Source: Shouchella clausii
GTDB lineage: Bacteria; Bacillota; Bacilli; Bacillales; Bacillaceae_D
Direction of reading: 5' to 3'
DNA length: 64,000 bases
Assembly (NCBI RefSeq): GCF_001598215.1
Contig: NZ_BCXJ01000005.1
Location: forward strand, 62,001-126,000
Shown one piece after another: positions 1-11,490 of this stretch. The notes under the pieces are model-generated. The model saw nothing but the letters and a program-made list of their open reading frames with translations. It was not told where the DNA came from and ran no database searches. The translations under genes were made by a program, and so were the position numbers. Numbering within the stretch: position 1 is the first letter of the stretch; each line of letters opens with the position of its first letter.

Positions 1-1811
1 ATAATCGTTGAATAGTTTTAGGTGCTGTCGCATGAATTAGCGTGTGTACTTCTTTTTGGACGAGGACAAGATTCTGATAGGAATCATTCTTTGTCAATAT
101 CCAAGGTTCTTTATGGTGACAGTGGAAGTCGTTTAAGAAAAGTTCCTCACCTGTTATGGCACACCTACCTTTTTGTGCGACAAATAAAGAAATTCGATTA
201 TCATTAAACTCAATACTTGCTCTTTCATTTATTACTGGATGTTGTCGTAACCATTGAACTTTCCAATCTGGAACGGATTGTTGTTTTCGATGAATCGCCA
301 GTCTGCCTTCGGGTGTATATTTGTTATAAGCATGCTGCTTCAACATTGGTTTTCTCATCTGAACATAACCTAAAGGCAGGATAGGGTAATCACGTAAATA
401 GCGCATTTGTTTTGATTTCAAATACTTCTTGATTCCCTTGTCATGACCTTTATATTCACCTTTTTTGGTCAATCCATCTTGTCGAAGTAAATTATACATA
501 GTAGTTAGTAGTTGATAATTAATTGGTACGAAATCTAGGTTTACATGTGTGGCTAACGAATAATACTGGTGTATTCCAATAATCATGGAATTATATTTTT
601 TAACTTCTCGTACCACATCTCTTTGCTTATCCATTTTCTTAATTCGTTTTATTTGTTTTTTAAGACCATGTTTAATGCGTTTAAGAGCTTTTGGCGCAAC
701 ATGTGAGTGGCAAACTTTTTTGCCACTTTTTGAAACTAACCGCAATGTAAATCCTAGAAATTCGCTAGATTCCTTGTTTAGGTTGGTTATCTGAGACTTT
801 TCTTCTGATACAGGAAGCCTTAACCTATCTTTTAACCACAGTTTGACTGCATGATATATTTTGTGAGCGTCTGCTTCTGAGCGACAAAATATTTTGAAGT
901 CATCGCAATACCTCACGATATACATTTCTTTTAGGGACGTAGTCTTTCGTAATTTTTCAAAAACTATGTCCTTTGTCCAAGTAGCCTTTCTTATTGTAGT
1001 TAGGTTTTAACTCCCGACAGGTACGTTCCTCCCATTGATTGGCAATCCACCAATCGAACTCATTCAAATTAATATTTGCAAGTAGGGGACTTAAAATTCC
1101 GCCTTGAGGTGTTCCTTTCGTTGGAATTTCAGTCTCCCCATTTGGAAGGACAATTGGTGCTTTCAACATCTTTCGTAAGATAACCAATAGTTGTTTATCA
1201 CGAATACCCATTGTCCATATCTGGCGCATGAGTTTTCCATGATGAACATTATCAAAGAATCCTTTAATATCTACATCAACTACATAATTTAATCGACTTT
1301 GGTTCATTCGGTACATACACGTAGCTATTGCATTTTCTGTAGACCGTTGAGGTCTAAATCCATAGCTGTGTTTATAAAATTTAGCTTCGCAAATTGGTTC
1401 AAGTACTTGCAGAATACATTGTTGAGTAATTCTATCCCATATAGAGGGGATACCCAACGGTCTTTTACGACCATTTGCTTTAGGAATTTCGACTCTACGA
1501 ACTTTTCTAGGTGTATAGCGTTGAAATCTTTTTTGTACAATTGTAAGAAAGGTAGTGTAGGGGAGGTTTTCAATATCTTTGATGGAAACCCCGTCAATAC
1601 CCTTTGTTTTACTGCCACTATTTCTTTTGATTGTACGATACGCTAATTGAATATTTTCATTTGATGTGATGATGTTCATTAGGTTTTTGAACGAAACTCC
1701 TTCGGCGCTTTTCTGATATAGCTTATCGAAAATTTCGGTCATTCCGTAGTATTCTGCATAACGTAATTTATTATCTTTTAGAACAATTTCTTCTCTAACA
1801 GTTTGTTTCAT
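1..1811 (-). pseudogene. ltrA: Group II intron reverse transcriptase/maturase with HNH domain, frameshifted
   Basis: The protein starts at 1811 behind GAGGAG. Its first 284 residues hold the RT N-terminal part (SIWDRITQQCILQVLEPICEAKFYKHSYGFRPQRS, then a GTPQGGILSPLLANI block). The frame then stops at 957. The next frame continues without a stop to position 1 and contains YCDDFKIFCR (RT catalytic box, YCDD instead of YADD), a basic maturase/X region and a C-terminal HNH-like endonuclease (CAITG...HCHHKEPW...NLVLV...H). Dropping one base from the five-base run at 959-963 joins the two frames as GHSFEKLRKTT, which fits the family. The gene is therefore a single-base frameshift, real or a sequencing error. 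The C-terminal end lies outside the window. Confidence 0.85.
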
Positions 1812-2529
1812 GGTCTATCACTCCTCTCGTCAGATTCGTGACCTTTTTAGTCCTACTAGAATCCATGAGTAGCGATTAAGTTTTATCAATAAATAAATGA
1901 CTTGTGGCTGTTCCTCCGATTCCATTACAGAATCATCAACGGTCGCGCCACTACTCTCACTAAAGATTAAGAAAAGTTATGCTTTCCTTTTCAACGCTTC
2001 ACTGGTTATGCTTACCTCCACGTCTTTAGCTTTCAACGTTCCCTTAACTTTATCAATACAGAGGTTAGGTGCTGACTTTACCCCACAGACTTATCATGTG
2101 CCTGTAACACATCAAGGACTTTCATAGGTGCATATTCTTACTTACCCTCAAGCCTGTCATACATACATTTCTGCATGTTAGCGTTCAGAGCGTACATTCG
2201 CCAGTTCGTCAGTTCCTTCGGGAACATTCTCACCATATTCTGTTTTTAATGACTCCCGGCATATCAACTACATATCCTACCTCTAGGACACTTTCGTTAA
2301 ATGACAAAACATTTAATACGGTAATTTTCTGCCGACTTCACCGAGCTTTATACAGTTTTCTTTGCACAAGATAACCGCATATCGGAGGATTAGAGGAAGC
2401 GTTTCAGGACGTTACGCCATCATTCCACTTCTCAAGTTAAGAGTTCTCCATTCCCTCTTTGTTTAACTGTTTTTTAAGCAGCTATATTCGAGAATGTGCG
2501 CAATCTTTTCAATTGCGAACGTTTCGCAC
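1..2529 (-). mobile_element. Group II intron (5' part; 3' end outside window)
   Basis: Reading leftwards, the interrupted VirB4-like gene ends at 2530 and the intron begins at 2529 with GTGCG, the consensus 5' end of bacterial group II introns. About 700 nt of non-coding sequence (1812-2529) corresponds to ribozyme domains I-III, and the intron-encoded protein starts at 1811. The intron is in the same orientation as its host gene, so splicing could restore the mRNA. The 3' end (domains V and VI) is beyond the window. I did not fold the RNA or assign its structural class. Short open frames inside it on the other strand are not genes. Confidence 0.85.
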
Positions 2530-4612
2530 AGCTCCATGCCTCATCCAAGTCAACAATTTTAAAAATACTACGGTCAGAGTGAATGAAGTCAAGGGCAAAA
2601 GTGGAAATAATAATCAACATGGCGACACTCAATAATTCCATTGTCGTGTATTCCTCAAAGTTGGTCTCTGCGTCTGGTAGGACTAAATCTGCCACTTGAA
2701 TAATGTTGAGCTGCTTTTCTAAACTGATAGAATTCTCGACCGTTCCATCAGAAAAGAGCAGGTGAGCAAAATCATAGTCTGTAAAGCTTTCGATATGGTC
2801 AGCAATCGTGGCAGCCAATGGATTCGGATCACTTCTTAGTTCTTGGATAACGAGAAGCAAGCCACGTTCTTCTTGTTGGCTAACAGCACGAATGGCTTTT
2901 CTAAGAACGGGAAACTTTTCACCATCTCGGCTAGATATACCCGTAAGAAAGGTCAAAATATCAATGGCAAGACTTTCGGAATCCTTTTTCTTTTGCATAA
3001 TGACATAAGGGTCAAGTAAGCCTTGATTGGCTTCCTCACTCGTTAAATTGACGATATTAATTTCTTCGGCAATATCGGGTAAGGCTTCCTTCCATCCGCC
3101 ACGTTCCCCCTTAGGATCGACAACCAATGCTTGACCACCAAAAAGAACCGCATAATAGACGAGTAGATTATTCGAGAACGATTTCCCACCACCAAGCGAC
3201 CCAAGAAAAGCAGAAGCAAGGGCATTGGTCACTGAACCTTTCACCCCTTGACTGGCAAGGCTAGGATTGAGGTATACATTTCTTCCTGTGTCTAAGTTGT
3301 ACCCAAAATAAATGCCTTCTGTTTCACCTAACATTTGCGTTGCTCCAAAGCCAAGCCCAGCTAAAAAGTCAGAGGTCACATATTGCACGTAATCATTGAT
3401 ATAACGCTTACTGGCAGGAATAAATTCACCATGTAAGCCCAACATATCGCCAAACGGACGGATGAGCTTCACGTTCAAATCATCGTAGAAATCTTTCACC
3501 TCATTACAGCGTTGTTTGAGTTCTTCCAAGTCAGAAGCAGAAACCCGAATGACATAGCTTAACTTATACATCGATTCTTTCGTTTGATCGAGGACATCTT
3601 CCAATTCGTTCACTTGTTCCAAGGCTTCTAGTACATTGCTGCCTGTTTCGTTGTCTGATTCCATCGCATGATTATCCAAGTCTTTCAATTCCTTTTTCTT
3701 ATTGCGTACGGTGGATAATGCTTTTTTATTAGTGACAATCTCGACATGCATAGAGGTGTCAATCGGAAAATCAAATTGTTGTTGTTGATAGTAAAAGATT
3801 TCATCACTAGGAAACTCTAAATCTCCCACAATAGAATTAATCGTAAAATAAGCCGCATAAGTCGTTTGTTCTTCCTGTTCCAGCTTGATATAACGCTGTT
3901 TTTCCGTAATCAGGCAGCGAGTAGGTTTCATTAAATCATAATGTTTGATATAGGTTTCTTTTTCGCCTTTTTCATAAGCAAGAGGATAGCTGTACTCTTC
4001 AAAAGCAATCCCTGATTGTCCATGAATATGCTCTATGAGATAACCCATATCGTCTTTCGTTACAGGTCGTACCTTAAAACGCTTTTTGATTTTATTCTGT
4101 AAGAGCTGTTCCATCTTTAAAAACCGAGCGACTTCACTATGCGGCATAGAAACAAAATCACCCATGACATGATGGTTCACATCACGTACAAAGGTAGAGA
4201 GGGAGGTCGTCACTGATTTTCCCATTGACTTGATATTGACTTCTTCTTCATTCAACAAAAGTTTAAAGCCGATAAAAAAGCGGTAGTCTACCTGATGTTC
4301 ACCAATCATGGAAACAAGGGCTTCGGTTTGATCGTCAATTCGATTGTAAGCTGCTTCTTGTAATCGTCCTGTCACTAGCTCTTTGCTTCGTTCTTGTACC
4401 GACCGTATACTGCTTTCGGTACTGATCTGTAAAGCGTGTATTTTGCCATCTTGATTTTGGGTAATCAACTGCCTAAAGTGTTCGTGTACCTGAATCTTTT
4501 CATCTTCGGACAGAAAGGAATAATTGTATGGCAATAATTCATAATACGCAAAGGTTTCTCCATCATGATTAAAGACCAAATTATTTTCCATATACTTAAT
4601 CGGGTAGCCCAT
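2530..4612 (-). CDS. VirB4-like conjugation ATPase (Tn916 Orf16/ConE type), 5' exon interrupted by intron
   Basis: This is the ATPase that powers the mating channel at the membrane in Tn916/ICEBs1-type conjugation. The exon encodes 694 residues. It carries Walker A GSLGGGKS near residue 471-478, an N-terminal TcpF/VirB4 region, and Walker B IVDLDEAWS at its end. The family protein is about 815 residues, so roughly 120 C-terminal residues lie in the second exon outside the window. Without splicing the frame runs 18 foreign residues into the intron and stops at 2474. Start: an upstream GTG is possible at 4621, but AAGGAG sits 8 nt before the ATG at 4612. Its start overlaps the end of the preceding tcpE-like gene, so the two are probably translationally coupled. 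Confidence 0.9.
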
Positions 4613-4988
4613 ATTTGCCACTCCTTACTGCGGTTATTTTTTCCTCAAAGGTCTGTTTTTGAAGTTTAACTGGCTTTCCTGCGTAAGTGACTTTTGAGCG
4701 AATCCAATAAGTTAACACAGATTTAAGAAACCCATAAGGCTTTTTGCCGTCAAAACTTTTCTTACTCATAAACCATGTCAAAGCTACGGGAATACCGACA
4801 TATTTTAATAATGCCCCGTCAATCAAAGAGAGGGGAGGAACGTTTCCAAGTAACATGACGACCAAGAGAGAAAGTACAAACCATGTCATTTGATTAAACG
4901 TAACAGGAAAAGGTAAACGAAAATCATTGATTGCATAAATCACTTTTTCCACTGACCAGATTCGCGTGTAACTTTTTAACTTCTTCAT
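4596..4988 (-). CDS. TcpE-family conjugation membrane protein (Tn916 Orf17 type)
   Basis: A 130-residue protein starting MKKLKSYTRIWSVEKVIYAI. Two adjacent hydrophobic segments (about residues 30-50 and 53-70) and a basic C-terminal tail fit the TcpE/PrgI-like family, which in Tn916-type elements precedes the VirB4 ATPase and helps build the mating apparatus in the membrane. Here it also directly precedes the ATPase gene, overlapping it by about 17 nt. AAAGGATG stands before the ATG. Function is by family and position; no catalytic motif is expected. Confidence 0.8.
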   Translation of the reverse strand: MKKLKSYTRIWSVEKVIYAINDFRLPFPVTFNQMTWFVLSLLVVMLLGNVPPLSLIDGALLKYVGIPVALTWFMSKKSFDGKKPYGFLKSVLTYWIRSKVTYAGKPVKLQKQTFEEKITAVRSGKYGLPD

Positions 4989-5049: not shown

Positions 5050-5550
5050 CTATCCGACATATTCAAATACCCCATGATTGGTGACAAGAAAATTCGCTCC
5101 AATCTCAAGGTCACGCCCATAGGCTTGATAATCAATATAATTTTGTAGATAAGCAGGCACTTCTCCAAGAGAACCTGATTCATCAATTAAATACCTAGCG
5201 ACATCTTCCATACTGTCGCAATCCGAATAACAAATAATATCATCTTGATTTTCCAGGACTTCTTCGACGCTGTTAAACCAATATCCCTGAATTTCCGAAA
5301 GAGCGTCATATAAGGGAGTACCTTCGATTTCCTGTACCATTTCACATAACCGATTGATTTCGGAAATAGGTGTGTACTCATGGATTTCAAATGGTAGCTC
5401 ATAATCATGTATGGCATATTCTTCATATTCACCATTCAATCCGATTTGTTCTTTCACATTTTCTATATCAATAGGAGGGGAGAACCAAGCACCTACTAGT
5501 TCACCCTCATTATATTTACCAAGGTTTGCTATATACACTTGCATTTCCAT
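5050..5550 (-). CDS. ardA: ArdA-type antirestriction protein (Tn916 Orf18 type)
   Basis: A 166-residue, strongly acidic protein (MEMQVYIANLGKYNEGELVGAW...). ArdA proteins mimic the bent shape and charge of B-form DNA and block type I restriction enzymes, protecting the element on entry into a new host. The opening YIANLGKYNEGELVGAWF and the internal EYAIHDYELPFEI match the family, and the length is the usual one. It sits between the TcpD-like and TcpE-like genes, equivalent to orf18 in Tn916. AAAGGACG precedes the ATG. A terminator-like hairpin upstream at 5585-5618 may set its expression apart from the upstream genes. Confidence 0.92.
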   Translation of the reverse strand: MEMQVYIANLGKYNEGELVGAWFSPPIDIENVKEQIGLNGEYEEYAIHDYELPFEIHEYTPISEINRLCEMVQEIEGTPLYDALSEIQGYWFNSVEEVLENQDDIICYSDCDSMEDVARYLIDESGSLGEVPAYLQNYIDYQAYGRDLEIGANFLVTNHGVFEYVG

Positions 5551-5954: not shown

Positions 5955-7160
5955 CTATTCTTTATCTTCTAATAAAACCTGAATCACATCTTCGGTCGCC
6001 ATTGCCTGCTGCATAAGCAATTTTTGATGACGTTTTGATAAGGTTGCCTGTTTCAATATATCATTCATGATATTTGTTTGATTGATTTCATCTAGTTTTA
6101 TTGCCAGTTTCCATGTGGGAGCGACTTGTTTTGCCAGCCACCGTAAAGTTTTATCAAACGTATAGGGTTCAGGTTTGGTGGTTAACGATATTTTTCGGTT
6201 TTCTCCTAAATCTAAGAAACGCTGCCACACTGCATTCATTTTCCAATTACTGCGACGCTTCTTTTCGTCTTTGTCTACAAAACGAATATAGCGATTGATG
6301 ATTGAAAAAGCGGTTCGTCCAGCGTCCTCATAGGTCATTAAATCAACAATTGCATGATAGGCACGATCATTTTTTAATCGGATTTCCAAGCGGTTTTTCA
6401 CGTCTGTATCTTCTAGTGATAAACCGTATTTGATAAATTGTTCATAGTCTTTTTCATAGATACACAGGTACACGTCACTTTTTAGCGAGCCGATATATAG
6501 ACTGTTTCCCATATCAGGTTTATCTTCCCCATGCACTAAGTCACCAGAACGATAGCTTTTAAAGTTCCGAAAAACAGAAATACATTCCTCGTTATGACAT
6601 TTGTTTGTGAGAAAGGGAATATCTAATATGCCTGTCTTATCATTCATCGCAAGGTCAATACGTTTAAATACGCCACCGACACGAAATACATCGACAAAGA
6701 AATCAAACCATGTTCGCTGTTGGGCGAGCAGAAAATTTTCAAATTGACGACATCCTTTTCCTTTTAATTCGAGTAGGCAGCCTTTATCCTCATCGGGCGA
6801 AACCATGACGACAATATCACCAAAGACGTATTGTTCAAGGTACGAATAAAAAGCAAAGTCCTCATGCAGCATGTATTCCATTTTCAACTGTAAAATATCT
6901 TCAATGACTGGAATAGGGTCTGTCGTGATAAATCGGATTCGCACATAATCAAATAAAATTTCAAGTGGTGCGTCTGGATTAAATTGTTCCAGTACATCCA
7001 ACAAAGCAGTTTGTAGAGAATCAGAAGGCGTTGCTTTTCCTGTTTCTATTTCGCTAATATACTGTCTTGTCACGCCAACATGTACTGCCAGCTTATTTTG
7101 TGATACACCGTATTCTAATCGTTTGTCTTTTAATGCTTGATACCAAGAAATTAGATTCAT
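5955..7160 (-). CDS. Conjugative relaxase / replication initiator (Orf20/NicK type) with N-terminal HTH
   Basis: A 401-residue protein. Residues about 10-60 form an XRE-type helix-turn-helix (NKLAVHVGVTRQYISEIETG). The remainder matches the replication initiation factor family (FDYVRIRFITTDPIPVIEDILQLK...) that includes Tn916 Orf20 and ICEBs1 NicK. These proteins nick oriT, stay bound to the 5' end and start rolling-circle replication and transfer. The catalytic tyrosine is not assigned with certainty. The gene lies directly downstream of the predicted oriT. GGGAGG precedes the ATG at 7160. The HTH could add operator or oriT binding; that is inference. Confidence 0.9.
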   Translation of the reverse strand: MNLISWYQALKDKRLEYGVSQNKLAVHVGVTRQYISEIETGKATPSDSLQTALLDVLEQFNPDAPLEILFDYVRIRFITTDPIPVIEDILQLKMEYMLHEDFAFYSYLEQYVFGDIVVMVSPDEDKGCLLELKGKGCRQFENFLLAQQRTWFDFFVDVFRVGGVFKRIDLAMNDKTGILDIPFLTNKCHNEECISVFRNFKSYRSGDLVHGEDKPDMGNSLYIGSLKSDVYLCIYEKDYEQFIKYGLSLEDTDVKNRLEIRLKNDRAYHAIVDLMTYEDAGRTAFSIINRYIRFVDKDEKKRRSNWKMNAVWQRFLDLGENRKISLTTKPEPYTFDKTLRWLAKQVAPTWKLAIKLDEINQTNIMNDILKQATLSKRHQKLLMQQAMATEDVIQVLLEDKE

Positions 7161-7388: not shown

Positions 7389-8726
7389 TTAGCTAGATAA
7401 TTTATCAATTTCTTTTAAAAAGTCATGCCTTTTTGGTACAAGGGGCGTGTAAAATTCAGAGATCACATTATCCCCCTTGTCTACATAACCACGACCTCTG
7501 ATTGGCTTTAAGAAAAATTGTTTTTGTACGTCGCTGCCAAAAAGCATACCATAGCCAAGCTCACTCATTCTGCCTAAACCTACTCGAAAATTAAATTGAT
7601 CCCTAATTCCATCTCCAAGATACTTTGCGTCTGGCCTTTGACAAGCAAGGATAAGGAAAAAGCCTGACTGCCTACCAAGCATAACAATTTGTTTTAGTTT
7701 ACTCATGACTTTAACGCTCTCTTTCCCAATCATTTCCATAAACGACGTGTACTCGTCAAAGATTAAAAAGCGAGCAGGCAAGCCTAAATAAGCATAGTTT
7801 TCACCAGTCTTATAGTTCGGCATTTGCTTCATTTCCTCGTTCCTTTTCATCATGTCCTCATAAAATTGGTCGATACATGCTGTCATATCTTCCTTTTTGT
7901 AGTACACATCAGGCATAACGGTAGCTAAATCTGCCAAATCAGCATTTTTGGGATCTAAGATATACAGTTTAGCATCTGTTTTGAGCAAGGCTTCAATCAA
8001 CGTGAGAATGAAATATGATTTTCCGCCTCCTGTTCCGCCAGCGATCAACATATGCGGCAACTTGTCATACTCCCAATAAAAAGACTCCATTAATTTTAAA
8101 CTGCCATCCTGTGCGATAACCTCATCAATGGAAATACGGTTCGCAATCATATCATAGAAAAGGGTATACTCCACGTAGGAATCACGTAATTCCTTCGATA
8201 CCAATTCACAATACAAACCACTTTCCAGTTTTGTTTCTAAATTTAATAGTGGTTCTTGAAATTTTCCAAGTGTAATCTCTACTTGAATGTAAAGCAAACC
8301 CTTTTCAAACCGATAATAGATTTTCGGGAAATGACTGATTTTCTCCTTTGATTTATTAGATGGAATATCCTTAAAGAAACTCTCTTGTGTGACTTGTTTT
8401 GTTTCATACCAACTGTTTTCTAATACCATTTTAGCAAGTTTTTGTCGATGAATAAGCTGCTTGAAGTGGTTATAACAATAACGATAATAGACAAAAGCAC
8501 AAACTGCCGTTAAAATGAGACTAATACACAACGTCACTAATCCATACTTACTAATAAAATGTGCTTGTAGTTCTTCGAGCTGCCACGTTGTAGCCATTAA
8601 AAATGACAAGTGAAAAGGAATAAAGAATAGAAGCCATACACCAACCAGCGACATACACACAAATTGAAAAACGAGAGAAGCGTCTTTTTCTCTAATACGT
8701 TTCCCTCGTTTTTTGAAAGGTTTCAT
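7389..8726 (-). CDS. FtsK/SpoIIIE-type conjugative coupling protein (Orf21/ConQ/TcpA type)
   Basis: A 445-residue ATPase that delivers the relaxase-DNA complex to the mating channel. Two transmembrane segments lie at about residues 20-45 and 62-82. Walker A is GGTGGGKS at 230-237 and Walker B is LIFDEYTSF near 321-329. The GRMSELGYGMLFGSD stretch and the RGRGYVDKG C-terminal region are FtsK-like. Length is close to Tn916 Orf21 (about 460). It is separated from the upstream DUF961 gene by 2 nt, so the two are co-transcribed. It is followed by oriT and the relaxase gene, the standard order. Confidence 0.92.
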   Translation of the reverse strand: MKPFKKRGKRIREKDASLVFQFVCMSLVGVWLLFFIPFHLSFLMATTWQLEELQAHFISKYGLVTLCISLILTAVCAFVYYRYCYNHFKQLIHRQKLAKMVLENSWYETKQVTQESFFKDIPSNKSKEKISHFPKIYYRFEKGLLYIQVEITLGKFQEPLLNLETKLESGLYCELVSKELRDSYVEYTLFYDMIANRISIDEVIAQDGSLKLMESFYWEYDKLPHMLIAGGTGGGKSYFILTLIEALLKTDAKLYILDPKNADLADLATVMPDVYYKKEDMTACIDQFYEDMMKRNEEMKQMPNYKTGENYAYLGLPARFLIFDEYTSFMEMIGKESVKVMSKLKQIVMLGRQSGFFLILACQRPDAKYLGDGIRDQFNFRVGLGRMSELGYGMLFGSDVQKQFFLKPIRGRGYVDKGDNVISEFYTPLVPKRHDFLKEIDKLSS

Positions 8727-10428: not shown

Positions 10429-11490
10429 CTATAAACTATCTGCAATACCAGCCATAATATATTCGGCACATGGTACAGCAATCGAATTTCCAAGTGCTTT
10501 ATATCTTGCATAATCACTAATCGCTTTATCTTGATCTCCATAAGCTGTCCATCCTTCAGGTAATCCCATCAAACGTTCACATTCCAATGGGGTAAGCTGT
10601 CGAATAAAACCATCTTTTTCTTCCCCTTCATACCAAAAAGAAAAAAGGTTGACTGAACCAGCTAACAAAGTTGGAAAAGGGTCACCTGTTTTTCCGAAAC
10701 TTCCAATGAATCCTGTTTCGTTTTTATCTTTTGCGGCACTTCGCATACGTCTTTCTTGAAAGGGGCGGATGATGGGTATGTTCCTCCCTGTTTCCTTAAC
10801 AGATATTCCACTGGTGTTGGGGGAGGACACCCTGTCTTTTCCGCCAGACGCAGGAATCGATTGCAGATTGCGGGCTTTAAATAATATTTCTCTGGCACGT
10901 TTTCCTCTAAAATCTGCCACGAGGAAGATACGTCTTCTTCTTTGAGCGAGAGTGGGTATTCCCCAATATTGGGCGTCCAACAATCGCCAGCACATATCAA
11001 TGCCATTCCCTCGGACCATTCCGGCGTTTGCCCAGACTCCAGAAGCAGGCATTGGAATTTTGGTGTTAATGAAAGATTCAAGGACGGCTTTAAAATCCAT
11101 CCGGTTATTTGATGAAAAAGCTCCCATGACGTTTTCCCAAACAGCGATAACTGGATATGTTCCATTCGTTGCACACCTCATTTCTTCAATAATTCGTAAT
11201 GCTTGATAAAACAAACTGGATTGGCTTCCTGCAAGCCCTTCACGTGTGCCAAGATTGGATAAGTTCTGACAAGGTGAACCAAATGTAATAATATGAACAG
11301 GTGGTATTTTTCCACCATCTATTTTTGTAATATCTCCAAGATGAAGCATAGTTGGAAAGTGACGTTTCGTAATGGAAACAGGTGCTTTCTCTACTTCGCT
11401 GGCCCATATAGGTATAATTCCATAACGAGAAGCAGCGAGAGGAAATACACCAATTCCATCAAATAAACTTCCTAATGTAAGAAGCGTCAT
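10429..11490 (-). CDS. Orphan DNA (cytosine-5-)-methyltransferase
   Basis: A 353-residue enzyme that transfers a methyl group from S-adenosylmethionine to C5 of cytosine in DNA. Motif I is LGSLFDGIGVFPLAA at the N-terminus. The catalytic motif IV is FGSPCQNLS, motif VI is WENVMGA, motif VIII is AQRRRRIFLVADFRG, and motif X is ALGNSIAVPCAEYI near the end. RQLTPLECERLMGLPEGWT is the usual late motif. The target-recognition region between VIII and X is short. No restriction endonuclease gene is next to it, so it is probably a solitary enzyme that masks the element from restriction, complementing ArdA. Recognition sequence unknown. Confidence 0.92.
   Translation of the reverse strand: MTLLTLGSLFDGIGVFPLAASRYGIIPIWASEVEKAPVSITKRHFPTMLHLGDITKIDGGKIPPVHIITFGSPCQNLSNLGTREGLAGSQSSLFYQALRIIEEMRCATNGTYPVIAVWENVMGAFSSNNRMDFKAVLESFINTKIPMPASGVWANAGMVRGNGIDMCWRLLDAQYWGIPTLAQRRRRIFLVADFRGKRAREILFKARNLQSIPASGGKDRVSSPNTSGISVKETGRNIPIIRPFQERRMRSAAKDKNETGFIGSFGKTGDPFPTLLAGSVNLFSFWYEGEEKDGFIRQLTPLECERLMGLPEGWTAYGDQDKAISDYARYKALGNSIAVPCAEYIMAGIADSL

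Follow-up and report, generated by a model that had tools for sequence, protein, structure and literature searches.

We identified a mobile group II intron that interrupts the VirB4/TcpF ATPase gene of an integrative conjugative element of the Tn916 type in Shouchella clausii. It has very probably (probability about 0.88) homed into this gene, at a single fixed nucleotide, and it is predicted to splice. The stretch of DNA analysed (the window) is 64,000 nucleotides long and corresponds to C5:62001-126000 of a contig in the 4.66-Mb genome; sequence left of the window was read from the same contig. The intron has a defined position, contains the RNA signature domains and is followed by an in-frame 3' exon. 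It is matched by empty homologous sites in other genomes and by an intron at the same site on a far more diverged backbone. The gene and its intron are laid out as follows, in window coordinates except where the contig is named:

2530..4621 (-): 5' exon of the VirB4/TcpF-type conjugation ATPase, 697 codons and one base, matching TcpF, AAA_10 and Tn916 Orf16; we take it to carry the Walker A and Walker B motifs
1..2529 (-): group II intron, nt 1-2529 of 2782, with GTGCG at 2529, a CGCTAT end, a 91% match to locus L004, and Rfam matches RF02004 and RF00029
2245..2448 (-): intron RNA core, Rfam group-II-D1D4-5 (179.9 bits, E 5.6e-41)
2127..2132 (-): putative EBS1, intron nt 398-403, from an alignment of 15 introns; 4/6 pairs with the end of the 5' exon
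C5:61748-62000, left of the window: last 253 intron nt, with domain V/VI and the 3' end
C5:61383-61747: 3' exon, 120 codons, in the same phase as the 5' exon

The intron is 2782 nt long on the minus strand, covering window positions 1-2529 and 253 nt to the left of the window. It splits the ATPase gene at 2529/2530, inside the fourth codon past the DE of DLDEAW, the acidic pair of Walker B. The minus-strand ATPase frame reads ...DLDEAWS plus one T, and GTGCG follows from 2529; the 3' end of the intron reads ...CGCTAT at C5:61748. The group II consensus is a GUGYG start and an AY end, which the ends found here (GTGCG...AT) match, and these ends are present together with a phase-1 frame shared by the exons. 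The RF02004 (group-II-D1D4-5) match covers the full model (1-201) and compares with a gathering score of 34.5. The RF00029 match to domain V/VI (63.1 bits against a gathering score of 40, full model 1-77, L003:11832-11748 (-)) lies left of the window and stops exactly on the 3' splice site at C5:61748. The fold of the first 601 nt gave a z of -2.22 and was not counted as evidence. A junction arising by chance or misreading was ruled out by both exon matches and both RNA models.

An earlier note on this DNA had described a VirB4-like gene cut at 2529/2530 after DEAWS and followed by a sense-oriented intron starting GTGCG, and the reading frame and the Rfam core bear this description out. The note also predicted domain V/VI and the 3' exon left of position 1, and held that the lack of either would count against it; RF00029 and an in-frame exon of 120 codons are both found there. 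The exon was expected near an 'AFLNVAQG-like' region: the exon is present, and the actual reading is FLQVAQG.

The 3' exon directly follows the intron. Its DNA begins TTTTGCAGGTGGCA, and its 120 codons, in the phase of the 5' exon, encode a protein starting LQVAQGKTLSNKLVRAG.... When the exons were searched separately against NCBIfam NF052333 TcpF (813 positions), the 5' exon matched profile positions 1-692 (1336.5 bits) and the 3' exon positions 694-811 (223.1 bits). The 5' exon also matched positions 1-251 of the 362 in Pfam AAA_10. On Tn916 Orf16 (815 aa), the 5' exon aligns with residues 1-694 (77%) and the 3' exon with residues 696-811 (81%); Orf16 codon 695 (F) is the one split after its first base by the intron. 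Chance is excluded because of the match scores of both exons to TcpF and Orf16. TcpF is reported to be essential for plasmid transfer in C. perfringens (PMC3506638).

Upon transcription, the intron RNA, aided by the maturase, would excise itself and join the exons, giving the full-length ATPase. Unspliced RNA would yield a protein of about 712-715 residues only, in which the motor domain lacks its final 120 residues at the C terminus. Transfer of the element may soundly be inferred to depend on splicing, with the qualification that the maturase is broken and splicing may be lost. Annotators should be warned that ATPase genes of this kind resemble pseudogenes yet may be spliced.

Judged from its gene content, the intron-bearing element is a Tn916-type integrative conjugative element. 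On the window side of the ATPase gene it comprises:

4596..4988 (-): small conjugation protein adjoining the ATPase gene (orf17 position), 70% over 130 aa to a pARO1.1 'conjugal transfer protein'
5050..5550 (-): ArdA-type antirestriction protein (orf18 position), 68% over 164 aa to pARO1.1 ArdA
5955..7160 (-): MobT relaxase (orf20 position), NCBIfam NF041493 at 694 bits, 64% to pARO1.1 MobT
7389..8726 (-): FtsK/HerA-like coupling ATPase (orf21 position), Pfam FtsK_SpoIIIE at 39.8 bits

The Tn916 gene order is kept, with a tyrosine recombinase (gene near C5:49161), MobT, the FtsK-like ATPase, TcpF, a membrane protein behind TcpF and a lysozyme/NlpC hydrolase. Besides MobT, profile matches were obtained for NF046089 (603.3 bits), Phage_integrase (141.7 bits), Lysozyme_like and NLPC_P60. 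The element also includes ArdA and a CD3337/EF1877-type membrane protein, and its cargo consists of cadmium-efflux genes (CadD and a heavy-metal P-type ATPase). Five element genes are 53-70% identical to genes of plasmid pARO1.1 and lie in the same order. A tblastn search of plasmids with the 5' exon (537 records) served solely to find an annotated intact relative. Two further Rfam matches, SQ2397 (172.2 bits, L003:2096-2333 (-)) and pemK RNA (56.4 bits, L003:715-814 (-)), probably lie within the same element. Between the last recognised gene of the element and a gene that we presume to be rRNA methyltransferase-like is an ORF at window 10429-11490, which we take to be DNA cytosine methyltransferase-like.

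Natural empty sites are present in related genomes. The orf16 site is uninterrupted in six order-level genomes (80-81% identity to Tn916 Orf16) and in two phylum-level genomes (100%). Two of these eight sites (L104 and L106) read TGGAGCTTTTTGCAGGTGGCA across the junction, so that 7 bases before and 14 after it equal the window flanks, and TGGAGCT is common to six of the eight; the match to the window flanks needed no joining of sequence. An exact-pattern search of the order for the occupied site returned 1/397 genomes, the window's own. Counting the window's own genome, homologues of the ATPase were found in 28/397 genomes of the order (E up to 1e-40) and 10/299 of the phylum (E up to 1e-30), some of the distant matches being partial (G269 covers residues 1-539 and has an internal stop). 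Among the matches listed in the order and phylum protein searches, a split at residue 694-704 was found in the window's genome only. The intron was absent from all 15 viral-contig loci matched by the site pattern. A 300-base junction query matched 210 plasmid records, none with at least 80% coverage, and the ten listed match the intron side only. Five phage records have Orf16 homologues, two spanning all 815 residues in one piece and three partial.

We found 44 loci with the first maturase piece, and the closest of these, L004 (Cytobacillus purgationiresistens NZ_JAUSUB010000015.1), has the same intron over the whole 2782 nt at 91% identity, at the same nucleotide, codon and phase of the same ATPase gene. 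Synonymous differences per site between the window and L004 come to 0.70 for the 5' exon and 0.66-0.73 for four further genes of the element, as compared to 0.36 for the maturase; the maturase did not reach the divergence of the 5' exon in any of 2000 bootstraps. Just beyond the junctions, identity to L004 is 80/100 bases on the 5' side and 77/100 on the 3' side. When the intron is divided into 28 stretches of roughly 100 bases, 24 are 86-99% identical, and the remaining four, at nt 801-1100 and 1901-2000, reach only 81-85%, near exon divergence. Because the intron and its maturase are less diverged than the exons and the neighbouring genes, the intron appears younger at this site than the split between the elements, and homing predicts the same. 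The pattern is as expected if the intron homed into the site after the two elements diverged, in a comparison of two copies whose exon synonymous estimate is near saturation. Homing between conjugative elements would thus be readable from sequence, in an intron far less diverged than the element around it. L004 differs from the window in that its maturase is intact (644 aa) and in having a second group II intron (GTGCGACACG..., L004:11214-11295), which starts in a lysozyme-type (orf14-like) gene at the contig end; the target has a lysozyme-like domain (Pfam). The C. purgationiresistens element would therefore have two introns in transfer genes.

The intron would spread into new copies of the element via retrohoming at the conserved Walker B codons. 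We compared EBS sequences of the window intron and 14 of the 44 loci, leaving out the 30 loci with undefined ends. In the best register, EBS1-IBS1 pairing is 4/6 in the window intron and in L004, and 5-6/6 in the other 13 introns. The true pairing of the five target classes was the best of 120 permutations in fixed and flexible registers alike; in both kinds of register, the window intron's own site was not the best in its row. For EBS2, no register stood out in the 15-intron alignment and none was convincing. Simple, strong base-pair targeting is thus weakly supported for the window intron, because EBS1 pairs at 4/6, the exon pairs better (5/6) with the site of L009, and EBS2 is not convincing.

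Related introns were found in other genes. Seven Bacilli loci (L010, L011, L014, L015, L018, L020 and L023) have introns that directly follow HNH in a RadC-like HNHPS motif. The target was assigned by Pfam RadC in all three pieces tested (L010, L011 and L023) and by sequence alone in the other four. Pfam also matched CHAP in one L006 piece and SpaA-type domains in one L009 piece, and gave no match for the L013 target piece. Among plasmids, 528 records matched in all, some of them through the exon portions that the query included. In 38 of these (H1-H38) the intron is 69-70% identical over at least 80% of the query; those listed are from E. faecalis, and the introns, where annotated, are mostly in CHAP/lysozyme-type genes. 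The window's own genome has a further domain V/VI match (48.1 bits, L049:1501-1614, C1:1276873-1276986) with no RVT_1 match nearby, located before collagen-like repeats and just behind a gene that is presumably sufB-like; it probably represents what is left of an intron, or else an intron without an ORF.

The maturase of the window intron is found in two parts:

957..1811 (-): reverse transcriptase/maturase, first part, 284 aa, RVT_1 positions 1-146, TIGR04416 261.4 bits; ends in the frame break
1..958 (-): reverse transcriptase/maturase, second part, in another frame and with YCDD, RVT_1 148-205, TIGR04416 93.4 bits at profile 207-350; extends left of the window

The frame changes in a T run (about 955-965) that is followed by TGA, inside the reverse transcriptase domain, and both pieces score under the TIGR04416 cut-off of 300. 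After YCDD the second part presumably contains the maturase region and an HNH-like stretch; at an E threshold of 0.001, no Pfam HNH match was found in the maturase pieces. An intact maturase frame is common among group II introns but not obligatory for every member. Of the 14 other introns, 12 have one long maturase frame of 633-645 residues, L018 has a maturase that is also broken, at another place, and the longest frame in L020 is 522 residues. The dN/dS ratio is 0.066 before the break and 0.113 after it, indicating purifying selection on both sides. Residue changes are small in number throughout, with 2 on the window branch and 4 on the L004 branch before the break (284 columns), and 2 and 5, respectively, after it (348 columns). 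Because selection is purifying on both sides and the window branch has no excess of changes after the break, the break is, on this substitution pattern, either recent or a sequence error.

An error of sequencing or assembly in the T run, for which we judge the chances just short of even, would leave the intron fully active and the element splicing and transferring normally. The break sits at a homopolymer, and the selection on both pieces and the lack of excess changes agree with an error. However, a recent true mutation would predict the same pattern, the counts being small, and the rough tiling of the window by open stretches (72 stretches, 59,994 bases summed, with some same-strand overlaps) says little on the error rate. 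A real and recent break, to which we give somewhat less than even odds, would mean that the maturase is lost, splicing is poor, no ATPase is made and the element is stranded on the chromosome. The two separate frames within RVT_1 favour such a loss, as does the rest of the genome, in which no second RVT_1 was found (two matches, both halves of this maturase). Against it, certain group II introns need hardly any maturase, or none, to splice, the break may be a sequence error at the T run, and a later-arriving related element could supply the maturase. The intron protein of Tn5397 is reported to be required for splicing, so a real break would probably stop ATPase production (PMC4430133). If the break is real it would be recent, and splicing, ATPase production and element transfer would probably be impaired. 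Splicing may be lost in this copy because the maturase frame is broken and the genome is without a second RVT_1 match, unless the sequence is in error. Maturase loss could in this way strand a conjugative element.

It is very improbable that the intron never splices and acts as an ATPase knock-out whose in-frame exons have merely not yet decayed: the splice signals are intact, and selection on the two exons is strongly purifying in the comparison of the two intron-bearing elements (dN/dS for window versus L004 of 0.042 and 0.033, a history of which part may predate the intron). Least probable of all is programmed +1 slippage, known at a stop from the release-factor-2 gene, at the UUU UGA stop in the T run as the sole source of maturase, coupling maturase level, ATPase splicing and conjugative transfer as a translational dial: the stop directly follows a run where the P-site tRNA could re-pair and changes are not in excess downstream, but L004 and L009, the two other introns with a YCDD protein, have an uninterrupted frame in which no slip site is conserved.

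The reading that we prefer, a mobile intron homed into one nucleotide of the ATPase gene, adds a conjugation ATPase whose intron is exactly located, with sites that are naturally empty elsewhere and a sister copy at the same nucleotide. The earlier note knew of no intron in orf16; one has been described, a 2.6 kb group II intron in Tn916-orf16 of Tn6253, record CP007024, from Streptococcus pyogenes STAB901 (PMC4239353). Tn6253 resembles the window in having a group II intron in the same ATPase gene of a Tn916-like element, and differs in intron length (2.6 kb versus 2782 nt) and in carrying tet(M) rather than cadmium-efflux genes; the paper names no insertion nucleotide (PMC4239353). In the literature searched, coverage of which was partial and in which the Tn6253 site is unstated, we found no description of VirB4 interrupted by an intron at its Walker B codons. 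For integrative conjugative elements of S. suis, intron insertions are reported at DPEXE in virB4, at DEFAN in the coupling protein and in a gene for a helicase, and production of VirB4 and the coupling protein needs splicing according to the authors (PMC12479173). As in the window, conserved motifs of conjugation ATPases are struck, whereas the elements belong to the Tn5252, TnGBS2 and vanG families and the virB4 site is DPEXE, not DEAW (PMC12479173). The Tn5397 intron of C. difficile, which is reported to splice in vivo, is likewise a group II intron in a Tn916-type element and differs in gene (orf14) and site (PMC4430133). The B. thuringiensis plasmid pAW63 also has introns in its conjugation region, B.th.I1 in an orf14-like gene and B.th.I2 in a VirD4 homologue; unlike the window, its VirB4 homologue is listed as one CDS and B.th.I2 is described as having no ORF (PMC1196294). 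Introns are thus already known from orf16 of Tn916 and, in S. suis elements, from virB4 and the genes for coupling proteins. The window intron is set apart by its sister copy at the same nucleotide, with the contrast in divergence between intron and element, and by its broken maturase.
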